Positions 3,283 through 42,838 of a stretch of 64,000 nucleotides of DNA are shown one piece after another (within the stretch, counting starts at the first letter, position 1; every line of letters starts with the position of its first letter). Source of the DNA: Thiomargarita sp. (GTDB taxonomy: Bacteria > Pseudomonadota > Gammaproteobacteria > Beggiatoales > Beggiatoaceae); assembly GCA_020721005.1 (NCBI GenBank), contig DYNP01000001.1:124001-188000 (forward strand), read 5' to 3'. The position numbers were made by a program, and so were the translations under genes. The notes below the pieces were generated by a model. It was not told the DNA's origin. It made no database searches and was given only the letters and a program-made list of their open reading frames with translations.

Positions 3283-3705
3283 CTAATTGCCATGATCATG
3301 AAGTGTGAAGTTATGATCGAACCACAAAACATAGAATATATTCTTAACTCTATAGCCAACCATTGGCTTTATACCTGAAAAACGAAAGGCTAATAAATTG
3401 TGTTCGTCTTCTGTGATAAACTTTGGTATAGTGACTTTGATGGCGGCCACTTTTATTTTCTCATATCCTAGCCCATGTCGGTCTATTTGTTGTATTTGGT
3501 TCCATGTAACATTTTTTCTCTTAAAAATTGAATCAGCAAACGCTGCTTTGTCATCCTTTTCCAACTCCGACAGACAGTAGTCCCCGGTTTGTAGCCGTTC
3601 TAAAGAGAAAAGTGGAACCATTTTGTTGTAATCTTCTGGTGCTTCGACAATAAGACGATCACTTTGATTTGTATCTGCTTTAAGTTTCCCTTTATTTTTT
3701 CCCAT
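3283..3705 (-). CDS. Putative toxin partner of the Panacea-domain protein
   Basis: A 140-residue soluble protein with no signal peptide or membrane segment. It looks like a compact family rather than a spurious frame: FSLERLQTGDYCLSELEKDD, then RHGLGYEKI, then LLAFRFSGIKPMVGYR, and a C-terminal VLWFDHNFTLHDHG. I cannot assign a biochemical activity. Its start ATG overlaps the stop of the upstream Panacea gene in a TGATG junction; a GTG one codon earlier is also possible. That tight coupling to an antitoxin-type gene is the reason for the toxin proposal. It sits alone between the ilv operon and a repeat element, a typical place for a mobile two-gene module. Confidence 0.6.
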   Translation of the reverse strand: MGKNKGKLKADTNQSDRLIVEAPEDYNKMVPLFSLERLQTGDYCLSELEKDDKAAFADSIFKRKNVTWNQIQQIDRHGLGYEKIKVAAIKVTIPKFITEDEHNLLAFRFSGIKPMVGYRVKNIFYVLWFDHNFTLHDHGN

Positions 3706-4160
3706 CACTTTAGCCTTGTCTTGAAATAACTCCCCAATTCTTCATCCTCCATGACAGATGCATCTTTCTCATGGTCTAACCAAAGTTTTTCATTATGAGA
3801 CATATCTCTTAGTTTCCATGCGCTAAACTGCCCAAAAACTGACCACACTTCATTCAGTAGCTCTAGCTGCTCACCGTCAAATTTTTCAGACGGATTATAT
3901 TCCAGCTCTGTAATTGGAGCAGTGCCATAATGTTTGTATTCGTGGTACACACTGGGAACGACAGGGCCATGTGTCCATGCCTGTAGTTTTTCTTGAAATA
4001 AGGGGTTATCGAAAATTGCCTGATGAAATCCTTTTGCGTAATAAAGCAGTTTTTGCAATTTTAAATTTGTAATTGGTTCTTCATCGTCTAATCCCTTCAT
4101 GATGAAAAATTGGACAACCTCTTTTTCTGAAATCATAGGTTTATTTCTATCTGTTGTCAC
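3705..4160 (-). CDS. Panacea-domain (DUF4065, SocA-like) putative antitoxin
   Basis: A 151-residue protein whose core (about residues 10-100) matches the Panacea/DUF4065 fold: VVQFFIMKGLDDEEPITNLK, LQKLLYYAKGFHQAIF, LQAWTHGPVVPSVYHEYKHY. Panacea domains serve as promiscuous antitoxins that neutralise unrelated toxins encoded beside them; the Caulobacter SocA adaptor belongs to the same group. The frame opens with GTG at 4158-4160, eight nt after GGGG. An in-frame ATG eight codons later (4134-4136) is the alternative start. It precedes and overlaps the 140-residue gene, giving the usual antitoxin-first order. The family is secure; the antitoxin role is inferred. Confidence 0.82.
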   Translation of the reverse strand: MTTDRNKPMISEKEVVQFFIMKGLDDEEPITNLKLQKLLYYAKGFHQAIFDNPLFQEKLQAWTHGPVVPSVYHEYKHYGTAPITELEYNPSEKFDGEQLELLNEVWSVFGQFSAWKLRDMSHNEKLWLDHEKDASVMEDEELGSYFKTRLK

Positions 4161-4190
4161 TATTTATGCCCCAATTAGCGTACGAATTAC

Positions 4191-4365
4191 TTATAGGACG
4201 CAATATCGCTAGCGTATTGCGCCGCATGTTTACCCCAAATTTAGGGTTACTCTCTTAATGTGGTGCACTCACAACAAAATCAATGGGTAGGGAGGTTGCC
4301 TGGTCCACGAATTAATGTCGGTATTTTTATGCGGCGCAATACGCCAACGCTATTGTGCCTCATAA
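4191..4365. repeat. 175-bp element with 37-nt imperfect terminal inverted repeats (MITE-like)
   Basis: Positions 4191-4227 and the reverse complement of 4329-4365 agree at 30 of 37 positions, with the inner 16 nt (GGCGTATTGCGCCGCAT side) nearly perfect. The 101-nt interior encodes nothing convincing. No clear target duplication was found. It could be a non-autonomous transposable element or a pair of REP-type palindromes in opposite orientation. Confidence 0.6.
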
Positions 4366-13739: not shown

Positions 13740-13932
13740 TGGAGTGGAGGCTTTAGCCGGCCGGCCCTTGCGATATGGAGTGGAGGCTTTAGCCGGCCAG
13801 CCGTAGGCATTACCCCACATACACAAATTGCAAGGGCCGGCCGGCTAAAGCCTCCACTCCAATGTATCTTCTAAAGCTTCCACTCCAATATATCTTCTAA
13901 AGCTTCCACTCCAATGTACCTTCTAAAGTATC
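13740..13932. repeat. Hairpin repeat family, locus A
   Basis: Left arm GGAGTGGAGGCTTTAGCCGG appears twice (13741 and 13777, 36 nt apart). A conserved loop with CCCCACATACACAAATTGCAAGG follows in two parts, then the right arm CCGGCTAAAGCCTCCACTCC ends at 13860. Three decayed right-arm fragments (CTTCTAAAGCTTCCACTCC type, about 28-nt spacing) continue to 13932. It fills the space between convergent plsC and comEC. Confidence 0.85.
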
Positions 13933-22705: not shown

Positions 22706-22771
22706 GTCATTTGCTCCTGGATATGTGGTCAAGATAAGGACATTTTACAAATGGTATTTTTATTAGATCTC

Positions 22772-22914
22772 TTGCAAAAGTATGCGATGATGAAAAGATA
22801 AGATACGAAAAAATAAATTAGCCGGAATGGAGGCTTTAGCCGGCCGGTGGCAGGTATTACCCCACACACTCAAATTACAAAGACCTACCGCTGGCCGGCT
22901 AAAGCCTCCACTCC
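22772..22914. repeat. Hairpin repeat family, locus B
   Basis: A single unit: left arm GGAATGGAGGCTTTAGCCGG from 22824, loop with CCCCACACACTCAAATTACAAAG, right arm CTGGCCGGCTAAAGCCTCC ending at 22914. Its left border TTGCAAAAGTATGCGATGAT (22772 on) and AGATACGAAAAAATAAA recur at locus D, marking element ends rather than chance flanks. It lies upstream of the GTPase gene and beyond the end of the 433-residue gene. Confidence 0.85.
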
Positions 22915-22943
22915 ACTTTAATGGCACTTTAGCACGAGAATTC

Positions 22944-25825: not shown

Positions 25826-26294
25826 GTTATTCAATTTTTGCCAAGATGAGGTTATGATAATACCTTAAATAGAGGGATTGATTTTGTGGAGGCTTTAGCC
25901 GGCCGGTGGTAGGTATTACCCTACACACTCAAATTGCAAGGGCCTACCGCTGGCCGGCTAAAGCCTCCATTCCATTTTATTGGTGCCCACCCTATAGCGC
26001 TTTAGCCGGAGTGGAGGCTTTAGCCGGCCGGTGGTAGGTATTATCCTACACACTCAAATTGCAAGGGCCTACCGCTGGCCGGCTAAAGCCTCCATTCCAT
26101 TTTATTGGTGCCCACCCTATAGCGCTTTAGCCGGAGTGGAGGCTTTAGCCGGCCGGTGGTAGGTATTATCCTACACACTCAAATTGCAAGGGCCTACCGC
26201 TGGCCGGCTAAAGCCTCCATTCCATTTTATTGGTGCCCACCCTATAGCGCTTTAGCCGGAGTGGAGGCTTTAGCCGTTATTCAATTTTTGCCAA
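25826..26294. repeat. 19-nt direct repeats bounding the hairpin array
   Basis: GTTATTCAATTTTTGCCAA occurs at 25826-25844 and again at 26276-26294, identical over 19 nt. The first copy lies 41 nt before the array; the second begins at the base where the fourth, truncated array unit breaks off. This looks like the scar of an insertion or duplication event. Confidence 0.8.
25886..26276. repeat. Hairpin repeat family, locus C: 125-nt tandem array
   Basis: Units begin at 25886, 26011, 26136 and 26261 (period exactly 125 nt; the fourth is cut after 16 nt). Each unit has left arm GGAGGCTTTAGCCGGCCGG, a loop with CCTACACACTCAAATTGCAA, right arm GCTGGCCGGCTAAAGCCTCC and a linker TTTATTGGTGCCCACCCTAT. 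The arms form a stem of about 26 bp. The copies are almost identical, differing at about one loop base, which implies recent expansion. Confidence 0.92.
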
Positions 26295-26353
26295 TAAGCA
26301 TTCAAAGTACCTGAGTTCGGTTAGCAAGCGATCGATGGGCTTCCTGTAGGTCC

Positions 26354-26447
26354 AACAATGGTAGAGACGCGATTAATCGCGTCTAACAATGGTGACGCAA
26401 TTAATGGCGTCTAACAATGGTAGAGACACGATTAATCGCGTCTCTAC
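26354..26447. repeat. Three copies of a GAGACGCGATTAATCGCGTC palindromic repeat
   Basis: AACAATGGTAGAGACGCG followed by ATTAATCGCGTCT occurs three times in a row, the middle copy shortened and mutated. The core GACGCGATTAATCGCGTC is a perfect palindrome. The last copy ends 10 nt before the moeA start, so it could lie in the moeA leader. Confidence 0.75.
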
Positions 26448-28318: not shown

Positions 28319-29359
28319 ATGCAATTTAAAACTTCTTCTTCCCCCTACTTTCATCGCGATTCTCAAGATTCCCCTCATAATGTAGCCATTCTTATGCACC
28401 GAGTCTTGTATGCTCTGATACCCGGCATTGCAACTTACGTATGGTTTTTCGGTTGGGGAATTGTCATCAACCTGATTCTAGCCAGCTTGACGGCCTTGAT
28501 TTGTGAAGCTTTTCTACTCAAATTACGACACTATCCCTTACGACCCTTCCTAACCGATGGCAGTGCTTTGGTCACCGCCTGGCTGCTGGCTTCTGCCCTG
28601 TCCCCCTTAGTCCCCTGGTGGGTCGTGGTCATAGGTAGCGCTTTCGCAATCATCTTTGTCAAACACCTATATGGAGGATTGGGGAACAACCTGTTCAATC
28701 CTGCAGTGGCCGGTTATGCCGTCCTCTTGATCTCATTCCCTTCCGAAATGAGCCACTGGCCGGGACTCTCTTCCCTGGGTGGATTTTACCCCAGTTTTAT
28801 AGACAGTCTCAACCTCAGCTTCACTGGACACACCTTGGGCGGTTTGGCAGTCGATGCCGTCAGCAGCGCCACTCCCTTAGATATAGTTCGCACTGAACTT
28901 AAACAATTTTACACCTTGGGAGAAATTTGGAAATCTCCACTATTTGGCTATTTAGGCGCTCGCGGTAACGAAATCATCGCCGGTATCTTTCTGTTGGGCG
29001 GACTATGGCTGATCTATACCAAAGTGATCACCTGGCATATTCCAGTGGCAGTGCTGGGCGGCCTATTTATGTGTGCTGGTTTATTTTACCTGATTGATTC
29101 CGATATCTATCCCTCTCCCCTATTTCATATGTTCACTGGGGGTGCTGTCATCGGCGCCTTCTTCATTGCCACCGATCCAGTCACCGCAGCCACCTCTTTG
29201 CAAGGTCGATTAATCTATGGTATTGGCATTGGTCTGCTTATCTATATTATTCGCACTTGGGGCAGTTATCCCGACTCCATTGCCTTTGCTGTGTTATTAA
29301 TGAATATGGTCGCGCCCCTGATTGACTATTACACTCAACCCCGCGTGTTTGGATATTAA
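28319..29359 (+). CDS. rnfD: Rnf electron transport complex subunit D
   Basis: Polytopic NqrB/RnfD-family subunit of the ion-translocating ferredoxin:NAD oxidoreductase. 346 residues with about nine hydrophobic helices. The covalent FMN site is Thr185 in VSSATPLD, the family motif usually written SGATPLD. FNPAVAGYAVLL, FTGGAVIGAFFIATDPVTAAT and TDGSALVTAWLLASALSPL are typical. rnfG begins 4 nt downstream, in standard D-G order. rnfABC are not upstream and rnfE is not downstream, so the operon is split or reduced in this genome. Confidence 0.93.
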   Translation: MQFKTSSSPYFHRDSQDSPHNVAILMHRVLYALIPGIATYVWFFGWGIVINLILASLTALICEAFLLKLRHYPLRPFLTDGSALVTAWLLASALSPLVPWWVVVIGSAFAIIFVKHLYGGLGNNLFNPAVAGYAVLLISFPSEMSHWPGLSSLGGFYPSFIDSLNLSFTGHTLGGLAVDAVSSATPLDIVRTELKQFYTLGEIWKSPLFGYLGARGNEIIAGIFLLGGLWLIYTKVITWHIPVAVLGGLFMCAGLFYLIDSDIYPSPLFHMFTGGAVIGAFFIATDPVTAATSLQGRLIYGIGIGLLIYIIRTWGSYPDSIAFAVLLMNMVAPLIDYYTQPRVFGY

Positions 29360-29363
29360 ACCC

Positions 29364-29975
29364 ATGTTAATTCAAAAAATGTTACACTCAGCCGGCATGT
29401 TGACCTTATCTGCTTTATTGGGAGGGGGGTTAGTTGCCTTCAGTTTTGAAGTGACCGATCAACAAATTCAAGCCAATCAACGAGCGGCCTTATTGCGCGG
29501 TTTAAATGAAATTCTCCCCGCAGAACGTTATGATAATGACCTGTTTACCGATCTAAGTTACGTGCAAAATCAGACTCTATTGGGCACTGAAAAACCGGTG
29601 ATTGTCTACCGCGCCCGTAAAGCCGGTCACCCGGTGGCAGCCATTCTTACTCCCAGCGCTCCAGATGGCTATAATGGGGAAATTCGATTGTTAGTGGGAA
29701 TCAATTATCAAGGACAATTGGAGGGAGTCAGAATAGTATCGCATCAAGAAACTCCCGGTTTGGGCGATTGGATAGAATTGCGCCGATCGAAATGGATTTT
29801 AAATTTCAAGGACCGTTCCCTGCAAAATCCCTTGTCAAATCAATGGCTGGTCAAACGAGATGGGGGAATATTTGATCAATTCACCGGAGCAACAATCACG
29901 CCCAGAGCCGTGGTTAAAGCAGTTAAAAACAGCCTTTTATTCTTTCAAAGTTACCGGGACCAGATTTTCAAGTGA
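29364..29975 (+). CDS. rnfG: Rnf electron transport complex subunit G
   Basis: Membrane-anchored flavoprotein subunit of Rnf. From MLIQKMLHSAGMLTLSALLG the 203 residues show one N-terminal membrane helix and a periplasmic FMN-binding domain with ILTPSAPDGYNGEIRLLVGI, HQETPGLGDWIE and the flavinylation motif TGAT (174-177) in DQFTGATITPRAVV. The frame is open further upstream into rnfD, but the ATG at 29364 is the natural start. An intrinsic terminator follows 44 nt after the stop. Confidence 0.93.
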   Translation: MLIQKMLHSAGMLTLSALLGGGLVAFSFEVTDQQIQANQRAALLRGLNEILPAERYDNDLFTDLSYVQNQTLLGTEKPVIVYRARKAGHPVAAILTPSAPDGYNGEIRLLVGINYQGQLEGVRIVSHQETPGLGDWIELRRSKWILNFKDRSLQNPLSNQWLVKRDGGIFDQFTGATITPRAVVKAVKNSLLFFQSYRDQIFK

Positions 29976-30018
29976 TTTCTCACGTCAATCCACAGGTACG
30001 TAATTAAGGGAAAAAAGG

Positions 30019-30046
30019 ACCGGTCTCATTAGACCTGACCGGTTTT
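30019..30046 (+). terminator. Rho-independent terminator after rnfG
   Basis: ACCGGTC (30019-30025) and GACCGGT (30037-30043) form a stem followed by TTTT, with an A-rich run before it; an alternative inner pairing GGTC/GACC exists. Position and form are those of an intrinsic terminator. Confidence 0.75.
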
Positions 30047-30093
30047 AAAAACAGGTTAGGTTTTGCAACCTTAATTACGATTCAATAGACCTT

Positions 30094-30808
30094 TTGCAAA
30101 AGTAAATGATGAGATACGAAAAAAAATAAAAGGGAAATCCCCGTTGGAGTGGAGGCTTTAGCCGGAGTAGAGGCTCTAGAAAGTACCTTGAAGTGGAGGC
30201 TTTAGCCGGAGTAGAGGCTCTAGAAAGTACCTTGGAGTGGAGGCTTTAGCCGGAGTAGAGGCTCTAGAAAATACCTTGGAGTGAAGGCTTTAGCCGGAGT
30301 AGAGCTCTAGAAAGTCCCTTGGAGTGGAGGCTTTAGCTGGAGTAGAGGCTCTAGAAAATACCTTGGAGTGGAGGCTTTAGCCGGAGTGGGGCTCTAGAAA
30401 GTACCTTGGAGTGGAGGCTTTAACCGGAGTAGAGTTCTAAAAAGTACCTTGGAGTGGAGGCTTTAGCTGGAGTAGAGGCTCTAGAAAATACCTTGGAGTG
30501 GAGGCTTTAGCCGGTCAGCCGTAGGCATCACCCCGCATACACGAATTGCAAGGGCCTACCGCTGGCCGGCTAAAGCCTCCACTCCAAAGTTTCCACCCCA
30601 AAGTTTCCACTCCAAAGTCTCCACCCCAAAGTTTCCACTCCAAAGCCTCCACTCCAAAGTCTCCACTCCAAAGTCTCCACTCCAAAGTCTCCACCCCAAA
30701 GTCTCCACCCCAAAGTCTCCACCCCAAAGTTTCCACTCTAAAGTTTCCACTCCAACGTACCTTAACTGATGGGCAATTTTCACTTTTTCATGATCGCATA
30801 CTTTTGCA
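30094..30808. repeat. Hairpin repeat family, locus D: compound element with two tandem arrays
   Basis: The element is bounded by TTGCAAAAGTA (30094) and its inverse TACTTTTGCA (ends 30808). From 30146 a 43/44-nt unit (GGAGTGGAGGCTTTAGCC plus GGAGTAGAGGCTCTAGAAAG...) is repeated eight times; the ninth left arm (30495) enters the hairpin loop (CCCCGCATACACGAATTGCAA) and the right arm ends at 30595. A 14-nt unit AAAGTCTCCACTCC (variants) then repeats about 11 times to 30753. It occupies most of the rnfG to Uma2 gap; the rest of 29976-30822 holds only the terminator. Confidence 0.9.
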
Positions 30809-30822
30809 GGAAATTTAATATT

Positions 30823-31386
30823 ATGATTGAAATACAACAAGTTAGCATGGAAGACTATTTGGACGCTGAGGAATTGACTTTGGGTCAAAATGAGTATCTA
30901 AATGGACATGTTTACCCCCTCTCCAGTCCCCATGAACGTCATAACCTGATCGTGGGCAATCTGTATTATCACTTGCGAACCGCTACTCGGGGCAGTCGTT
31001 GCAAGGTGTTCATGAGCACCATGAAATTGCGGATCAATGAGCGCTCTACCTTTTATTACCCGGACTTGATGGTATGCTGTGACTCTGAGGATAACCATAA
31101 TTTGTACAAAAGTCGTCCTTTTCTCATTGCTGAGGTGCTGTCTACAACCACTGAAGTGATTGATCGGCGTGAAAAATTGATCGCCTACCAAGATATTCCC
31201 GGTTTACAATATTATTTTTTAATTGCCTCGCATCAGATGCAAGCAGATTATTATCAACGAACTGGGGATGGCAGTTGGTCTGGGACTCGTTTGGAACATG
31301 ACAACATTGTGGAAATTGACTGTCCAGGGGCAAAGACTATTTTTTTATGCCTGAATGATTTTTATCAAGAGGTTCCCATGCCCTAA
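30823..31386 (+). CDS. Uma2-family (DUF820) putative endonuclease
   Basis: Restriction-endonuclease-like fold protein of 187 residues. Catalytic-type positions are Asp81 in YYPDLMV and Glu104 in LIAEVLSTTTEVIDRREKL, with Lys118. The N-terminal EIQQVSMEDYLDAEE and LNGHVYPLSSPHERHN are typical of this expanded family in cyanobacteria and Thiotrichales; function is not established. The ATG at 30823 was chosen; the longer frame runs into the repeat array. It lies 14 nt past the right end of the repeat element. Confidence 0.85.
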   Translation: MIEIQQVSMEDYLDAEELTLGQNEYLNGHVYPLSSPHERHNLIVGNLYYHLRTATRGSRCKVFMSTMKLRINERSTFYYPDLMVCCDSEDNHNLYKSRPFLIAEVLSTTTEVIDRREKLIAYQDIPGLQYYFLIASHQMQADYYQRTGDGSWSGTRLEHDNIVEIDCPGAKTIFLCLNDFYQEVPMP

Positions 31387-42606: not shown

Positions 42607-42838
42607 TTGGAGTGGAGGCTTTAGCCGGTCAGCCGTAGGCATCGCTCCACATACACAAATTACAAGGATCTACCGCTGACCGGCTAAAGCCTCCACTCCA
42701 ACAAGGATCTACCGTTGACCGGCTAAAGCCTCCACTCCAACAAGGATCTACCACTGACCGGCTAAAGCCTCCACTCCAACAAGGATCTACCGCTGCTGAC
42801 CGGCTAAAGCCTCCACTCCAACGGGGATTTCCCTTTTA
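42607..42838. repeat. Hairpin repeat family, locus E: right arm amplified fourfold
   Basis: Left arm TTGGAGTGGAGGCTTTAGCC, loop with CTCCACATACACAAATTACAA, then the right arm in four tandem 39-nt copies (starts 42663, 42702, 42741, 42780; CAAGGATCTACCGCTGACC plus GGCTAAAGCCTCCACTCCAA). The last copy has a 3-nt insertion. The right border CGGGGATTTCCCTTTTATTT then TTTCGTATT is the inverse of the left border of locus D. Confidence 0.9.

Follow-up and report, generated by a model that had tools for sequence, protein, structure and literature searches.

A dispersed, probably IS5-derived MITE in a Thiomargarita genome with tandem arrays seeded from the arms of a foldback hairpin

Between rnfG and a Uma2-family gene in the draft genome of a Thiomargarita sp. 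(NCBI GenBank assembly GCA_020721005.1) lies a compound sequence in which one hairpin has an array of 44-nt units on its left and an array of 14-nt units on its right. What kind of element is this, and how could two unlike arrays come to surround a single hairpin? The original prediction, made from a stretch of 64,000 nt of contig DYNP01000001.1 (positions 124,001 to 188,000; hereafter the window), held that two independent slippage events around one hairpin are hard to explain by simple transposition. This is too strong: transposition covers the spread of the element and its 3-bp duplications, and local expansion of the hairpin arms covers the arrays. By the features tested, the window element is one copy of a dispersed MITE.

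The element ends in 18-nt inverted repeats of the AGACCTCTTGCAAAAGTA family, with AAT outside both (Table 1). The inverted border words on which the prediction was built are present, TTGCAAAAGTA at 30094-30104 and TACTTTTGCA(G) at 30799-30809, the latter with one mismatch to the full word. The inverted ends were thus correctly seen, but the borders were drawn too short, as the inverted repeat runs 7 nt further out on each side. The compound structure, with inverted ends and two arrays of different units around a hairpin, was borne out, and the earlier counts of eight units on the left and about eleven on the right compare with 8.5 and 13.1 copies by TRF. The 14-nt unit had been taken for a piece of the right arm, and indeed both arrays derive from the hairpin arms. 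TRF rates the left array at 91% matches and a score of 637 (reporting also a 130-nt higher-order period, score 656) and the right array at 90% matches and a score of 277; since the best score in 40 order-1 Markov sequences of 64 kb with the same dinucleotide make-up was 62, the arrays are not due to chance.

Table 1. Features of the window element, its neighbour genes and further cores in the window (positions are those of the window)
Feature	Position	Strand	Basis or remark
Whole element, between rnfG and Uma2-family gene	30087-30816		730 nt
Left target-site duplication AAT	30084..30086	.	Read from sequence
Left terminal inverted repeat AGACCTTTTGCAAAAGTA	30087..30104	+	1 mismatch vs family
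'End 1' subterminal stretch, common to family copies	30105..30143	+	Scored vs end-1 string; window element is copy L151
44-nt array, 8.5 units, each with arm motif GGAGTGGAGGCTTTAGCC and a degenerate second copy of the motif	30144..30514	+	TRF
Hairpin core: 27-bp outer stem, inner stem and loop	30493..30587	.	DNA fold
14-nt array, 13.1 units, AAAGTCTCCACTCC, made from outer part of right arm	30572..30755	-	TRF
'End 2' subterminal stretch (CGTACCTTAACTGATGGGC...)	30756..30798	-	End-string scoring
Right terminal inverted repeat TACTTTTGCAGGAAATTT	30799..30816	-	4 mismatches vs family
Right target-site duplication AAT	30817..30819	.	Read from sequence
rnfG, upstream of element	29322..29975	+	PRK01908, TIGR01947 above cut-off
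Uma2-family gene	30823..31386	+	PF05685, E 1.3e-26; start chosen, 6 nt beyond right inverted repeat
Further copy without array	22765..22916	+	Left inverted repeat present, right one not found
Further core with 39-nt array (4.1 units)	42612..42822	.	Subterminal sequence kept, no inverted repeats found
Further core with 26-nt array (3.2 units)	13744..13928	.	No inverted repeats found
Three tandem copies of whole core, 125-nt period, 99%	25886..26276	.	Different surrounding, no inverted repeats found

Folded as DNA, the hairpin between the arrays reaches -40.3 kcal/mol (z -11.2). Folded as RNA, the whole element is predicted to form one long foldback of -334 kcal/mol (mean of 20 shuffles, -227), and in this predicted fold left units pair with right units. 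Since pairing persists between the left units (GGAGTGGAGG) and the right units (CCTCCACTCC), a growing array extends the arms of the foldback, as it does in Foldback transposons. Across the family copies described below, the lengths of the end-1 and end-2 arms are moderately correlated (Spearman 0.36, p 0.005, n=58, excluding two of 60 copies in which the loop was not placeable). No transposase gene lies within the 730-nt element; all that overlaps it is short mechanical ORFs across the arrays and the beginning of the Uma2 frame. The window gave no Rfam match at the gathering threshold.

Two smaller features accompany the element. Between it and rnfG lies an 81-nt stretch (29999-30079) bounded by an inverted repeat of 11 nt (CGTAATTAAGG/CCTTAATTACG), and part of this stretch (39 nt, 87%) recurs at another locus, L204. 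The end-2 stretch contains one TAACTGA heptamer (30763-30769); direct repeats of TAACTGA are reported in marine Beggiatoaceae (PMC4679880), and the single heptamer is probably unrelated to them.

A genome-wide search for the border sequences had been proposed as a check, their absence elsewhere to count against an active element. The 11-nt border word is abundant in the 4.05-Mb draft genome, with 136 exact places (73 + 63) against six (3 + 3) for a reversed control, so that the borders do recur genome-wide; in the window alone the word is mildly enriched (six places with at most one mismatch, 2.3 expected). No evidence of present-day activity was seen with a genome set of one genome per species.

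Copies were read from 100 stretches around listed border-word places, of the 136, plus some of the remainder, a sample that falls short of every copy. Pairs of facing ends, with at most four of 18 mismatches per end, define 60 copies; 45 partnerless end rows were excluded, and three pairs with an 11-nt end and one mismatch (L142, L207 and a second pair in L195) stand outside the 60. The two copies at locus L203 are counted as two. A threefold repeat of the element's right part occurs at L147; there the left end was matched to the closest right end, which makes the flank match of this pair non-independent. The 60 elements are 177-788 nt long, with a median of 320. Identical 3-nt flanks were found in 43 of them, where shuffling gave a mean of 18.2 and a maximum of 28 (2000 shuffles), and the flank words are AAT (20), ATT (19), AGT (3) and AAG (1); the middle base carries most of the duplication signal because the first and last bases (A..T) are near-constant. 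The duplication is absent in the other 17 copies. The family has inverted ends, makes a 3-bp duplication and is dispersed in the genome.

Whole cores are also found tandemly duplicated, with periods of 125-202 nt and 97-99% likeness, at L147, L162, L218 and in the window at 25886-26276; such tandem duplication is a second scale of amplification. A 31-nt array just upstream of moeA (window 26350-26443, 3.1 units, GTCTAACAATGGTAGAGACGCGATTAATCGC) is unrelated to the hairpin arms.

The arrays are not peculiar to the window copy. TRF finds at least one array in 42 of the 60 copies, 15 of which have arrays on both sides of the loop, and none in 18; the 44-nt and 14-nt lengths themselves recur, each on the same side of the element. 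Periods run from 14 to 134 nt, 20 different ones appearing in the TRF table for the 60 copies, and the commonest are 26 (22 arrays), 36 (8), 44 (6), 14 (5) and 18 nt (4). When copies are turned by their subterminal ends, all six arrays of 44 nt, five of them in copies other than that of the window, lie on the end-1 side and all five arrays of 14 nt on the end-2 side. Of the eight 36-nt arrays, seven likewise fall on the end-2 side (with one of the seven scored as spanning, and the second end unassigned in one copy), and the 22 arrays of 26 nt were found on both sides. Since 44-nt and 14-nt arrays recur side-specifically, the window element combines two recurrent, side-specific array types.

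Where do such unit lengths come from? One array-free copy, L175, has a single 44-nt-like unit on its end-1 side, which suggests that some array seeds were already in the founder, with just their number changing. Read by eye, several periods match the spacing of direct repeats in the arm (36, CAA/CAA; 26, ACC/ACC; 18, CC/CC; 14, AA/AA); this match is weak evidence, the fitting repeats being just 2-3 nt long. The loop itself occurs in either orientation relative to the ends, in 34 and 24 of 58 copies (p 0.24 for an even split), and as both orientations are common, either the core has flipped many times or it came in both ways round.

Units resemble others of their own array more closely than units from different arrays of equal period. 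Among arrays of at least 2.5 copies, mean identity within and between arrays was 0.929 and 0.848 for 26-nt units (21 arrays), 0.908 and 0.862 for 36-nt units (12 arrays), and 0.876 and 0.808 for 44-nt units (7 arrays); for each of the three, none of 500 label permutations reached the observed within-array likeness. The strictly best match of a unit lay in its own array for 41 of 106 units of 26 nt, 29 of 59 of 36 nt, and 26 of 31 of 44 nt.

A duplicated insertion site, L203, stood in for a comparison between isolates; the genome set has one genome per species. Here MITE copies occupy one and the same place beside two tandem haemagglutinin-like genes (545-1297 and 3396-4264). The near flanks differ at one of 480 positions and the elements at 20 of 247 aligned positions (Fisher p 4e-9), and the arrays differ as well, 272 vs 388 nt; flank likeness drops at distances greater than roughly 350 nt to the left and 200 nt to the right. 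This pattern could reflect fast change inside the element, exchange with other copies, or homogenised flanks, two insertions at one site being less likely. For a donor of the L203 bodies, a search of 110 stretches gave no near-identical whole-body match, and a 100-nt part of one body shows 96% likeness to L017, vs 91% to its twin. The pair provides a natural test of the instability of the element.

The origin of the shell was sought in related genomes. The exact 17-nt end occurs in two of 41 other genomes of the family (G044 and G019), at three places in each. In G044 it adjoins the same 33-34-aa IS5-like transposase tail at all three places, and this tail matches the C-terminus of the NF033581 IS5_4 model with an E of 6e-5, below the model cut-off; what G044 presents is one IS end with the tail, and no full IS with both ends was seen. 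In G019 a partial, stop-containing tail (77% over 22 aa) was found at one of the three places and none was seen at the other two. Because this end is found right beside an IS5-like transposase tail in a related genus, the MITE shell is probably of IS5 origin. Several IS5 subgroups produce a short target duplication of 2-4 bp, and the 3-bp duplication here, mostly AAT or ATT, lies within this range.

In this genome itself, NF033581 IS5_4 has no match (matches in G007, G019 and G044 are all below cut-off), DDE_Tnp_1_2 has none, and a regular-expression scan of 100 stretches (L135-L234) for the IS5-like C-terminal motif found nothing. The single DDE_Tnp_1 match, on contig C95, is not among the listed end-word places and was rejected as parent transposase; a weak protein match between longer ORFs at C76:96155 (E 0.024, containing a stop) was put down to chance or to a remnant. 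With no such transposase found in this genome, the mobiliser may be missing, may have fallen into an assembly gap, or may be of a different type.

The core reaches further than the shell. A core pattern matches 180 times in this genome and 282 times in G007, a genome from another genus of the family, with no match in the reversed control. In G007 the exact 17-nt end is absent and the surroundings of the core are different, often CAATGCCATTAAGTTAAGG; among the cores listed there (L120-L134 and L288-L302, even numbers), arms are constant and middles of several kinds, and some loci have arm-unit arrays of 18 to 51 nt. The exact 19-nt arm occurs 601 times here and not once in 368 other genomes of the class (G007 being outside that draw), and a DNA search of 40 genomes including this one gave matches in this genome and G007 alone. 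Plasmid and phage collections held no match to the 89-nt hairpin, and viral contigs no exact match to the 18-nt arm. Among 50 listed cores, an IS5-type end was found on both sides of 16 and on one side of 22; one has only subterminal sequence, two have a different end (ACCTTGTGTGCAACACCTATTT) on one or both sides and nine have none (at most five mismatches for the IS5-type end and six for the second kind, over 650 nt; the 50 include some cores that are tandem copies of one another). Some of the one-sided ends may be chance at that tolerance. Ends of this second kind, like ACCTTGTGTGCAACACCTATTT, have the same core within or beside them at L016, L019, L020, L234 and L314 here and at L128 in G007.

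The core might instead be REPIN-like, composed of two inverted REP-like arms moved by a Y1 transposase (RAYT) and lodged in an IS5-type MITE, with the arrays as BIME-like clusters. REPINs are described as hairpin-forming doublets, some in tandem clusters (PMC3116915), and the core resembles them and BIMEs in having two inverted conserved arms with a more variable spacer, a hairpin, hundreds of copies and some tandem clusters. The core-pattern counts in the two genomes, the constant arms and varying middles in G007, and Y1_Tnp matches in both genomes (two here, one with an internal stop; one in G007) all speak for this reading, as do the palindromes at L238:1836-1917, whose cores are GGCTGAAGCC and GGCTTTAGCC, immediately upstream of a Y1 (RAYT-like) gene. 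The palindrome beside that gene, however, could be a terminator, with a T run after it on the minus strand. REPs normally adjoin their RAYT (PMC3116915), and here the full arm motif, GGCTTTAG joined to the GTGGAG arm part, was found at none of the three Y1 loci (about 1.5 kb on each side). Moreover, 38 of the 50 listed cores are accompanied on one or both sides by an IS5-type inverted repeat (within 650 nt, at most five mismatches), so that the IS5-type shell explains most of the spread here, and we regard a REPIN-like origin as unlikely. A further reading makes the arrays selected regulatory or transcription-terminating devices, with the hairpin as the functional unit; the very stable predicted fold, the start of the Uma2 gene beside the element, and reports that BrickBuilt and BOX elements affect or carry transcription elsewhere (PMC4596501, PMC3049150) would suit it. 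Yet the region 29900-31000 has no sigma-70-like site (0.9 expected in shuffles), its sole terminator-like site (30022-30035) is outside the element, and unit length and number vary widely between copies, 18 of 60 having no array at all, which makes this reading highly improbable. That the array lengths or the compound structure are artefacts of assembly in a 133-contig draft is suggested by contigs that start (C88 and C96, base 1) or stop (C119, last base) inside arm arrays. All 60 paired copies, however, have sequence on both sides, 43 of them with the 3-nt duplication, units of an array differ by point differences, and the same unit lengths appear in many copies; we give this explanation almost no credence, although exact array copy numbers could be wrong in the draft assembly.

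As to the neighbour genes, the closest RnfD among the records returned is 66% identical, of Candidatus Parabeggiatoa and Thiomargarita-like origin, and no Uma2 relative was confirmed in viral contigs. The Uma2 frame extends back without a stop to an ATG at 30769, within the element. In this copy the right inverted repeat has become TACTTTTGCAGGAAATTT, a change that creates AGGA 11 nt ahead of the ATG at 30823 (window 30799-30825), and from its position this AGGA may supply the ribosome binding site of the Uma2-family gene.

The reading that we consider well supported is that of a transposed IS5-type MITE (18-nt ends, 3-bp duplication) with a foldback hairpin whose arms lengthen and shorten in place through slippage or unequal recombination. 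The arrays are seeded from the arms, units are more alike within arrays, and the two copies at the duplicated site have diverged. A non-autonomous MITE would have been mobilised in trans by an IS5-family transposase, carrying a foldback hairpin of about 95 nt inside its 18-nt IS5-type ends and making a 3-bp target duplication on insertion. After insertion, the hairpin arms would be copied into tandem arrays, through replication slippage or unequal recombination at the palindrome, with unit length set by local sequence and array length changing in place in each copy. Gene conversion between copies may also reshape the bodies, and the element would have no host function. A more far-reaching proposal, which we put forward tentatively and with some doubt, is that the core is a mobile passenger between shells and between two genera, in either orientation, and that its arms are a de novo minisatellite generator with unit lengths predictable from the spacing of short direct repeats.

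Comparable elements have been described. BrickBuilt of Porphyromonas gingivalis (PMC4596501) is likewise a MITE with an internal minisatellite; its inverted repeats are IS5-family-like (GAGACCTTTGCA, AAGACCTTTGCA), and the AGACCTCTTGCAAAAG and AGACCTCTTGCAAAAGT ends here resemble them. Its repeat number is reported to vary between strains, and its host range to be narrow, as is the range seen here. It has 18-19 copies per genome, a distinct leader and tail, and is also described from P. gulae; its target duplication is 4 nt (GAAA, AAAA) rather than 3, and one 23-nt unit is reported for all repeat-bearing copies (PMC4596501), whereas here there are many unit lengths. Unlike BrickBuilt, the present family has arrays on both sides of a central hairpin, a loop in either orientation, and a core common to another genus. 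BOX of Streptococcus pneumoniae (PMC3049150) is similarly a composite MITE-like element with inverted ends and variable tandem internal modules (boxB), and has a strong predicted fold and a length of 67-637 bp (here 177-788). In BOX, compared by its description, one type of boxB module stands between boxA and boxC (PMC3049150), whereas here side-specific units occupy both arms. With BrickBuilt and BOX the family shares an array inside inverted repeats with a number that varies between copies (42 of 60), and it differs in having 20 periods in place of one shared unit type.

Drosophila Foldback elements (Tetris, PMC4079207; Galileo, PMC3573991) are described as having inverted repeats with variable tandem subrepeats, in arrays that expand inside the element. 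Inverted repeats of tandem subrepeats that fold back are found here as well, by the predicted fold and the arrays. The Drosophila elements are eukaryotic, kilobase-sized and served by other transposases, whereas the present arrays lie inside 18-nt ends, in the arms of a central hairpin; the analogy is one of working, and we claim no relationship. Closer to home, the related sulfur bacterium Thiomargarita nelsonii (Beggiatoaceae) is reported to have many MITEs and palindromic repeats, and its hupL MITE, set beside ours by description, has a 10-bp direct repeat and a 19-bp inverted repeat (PMC4853749). The term 'tandem repeat' is absent from the main text of that paper (PMC4853749). Our searches of a library of open-access papers turned up no report of the present MITE family.

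Minisatellite-bearing MITEs are thus already known from a few bacteria, and a similar working from flies. What appears to be new relative to the bacterial precedents compared here is how diverse the unit lengths are, that arrays flanking a single hairpin are side-specific, and that two genera have the core in common. One genome presents dozens of insertions of the same hairpin, whose arrays range from absent to about fourteen units and come in many unit lengths. This is a natural series for asking how minisatellites arise at palindromes in bacteria, and whether MITEs act as their seeds. If array lengths vary between strains, the loci would be usable as typing markers; some already coincide with contig ends in the draft.
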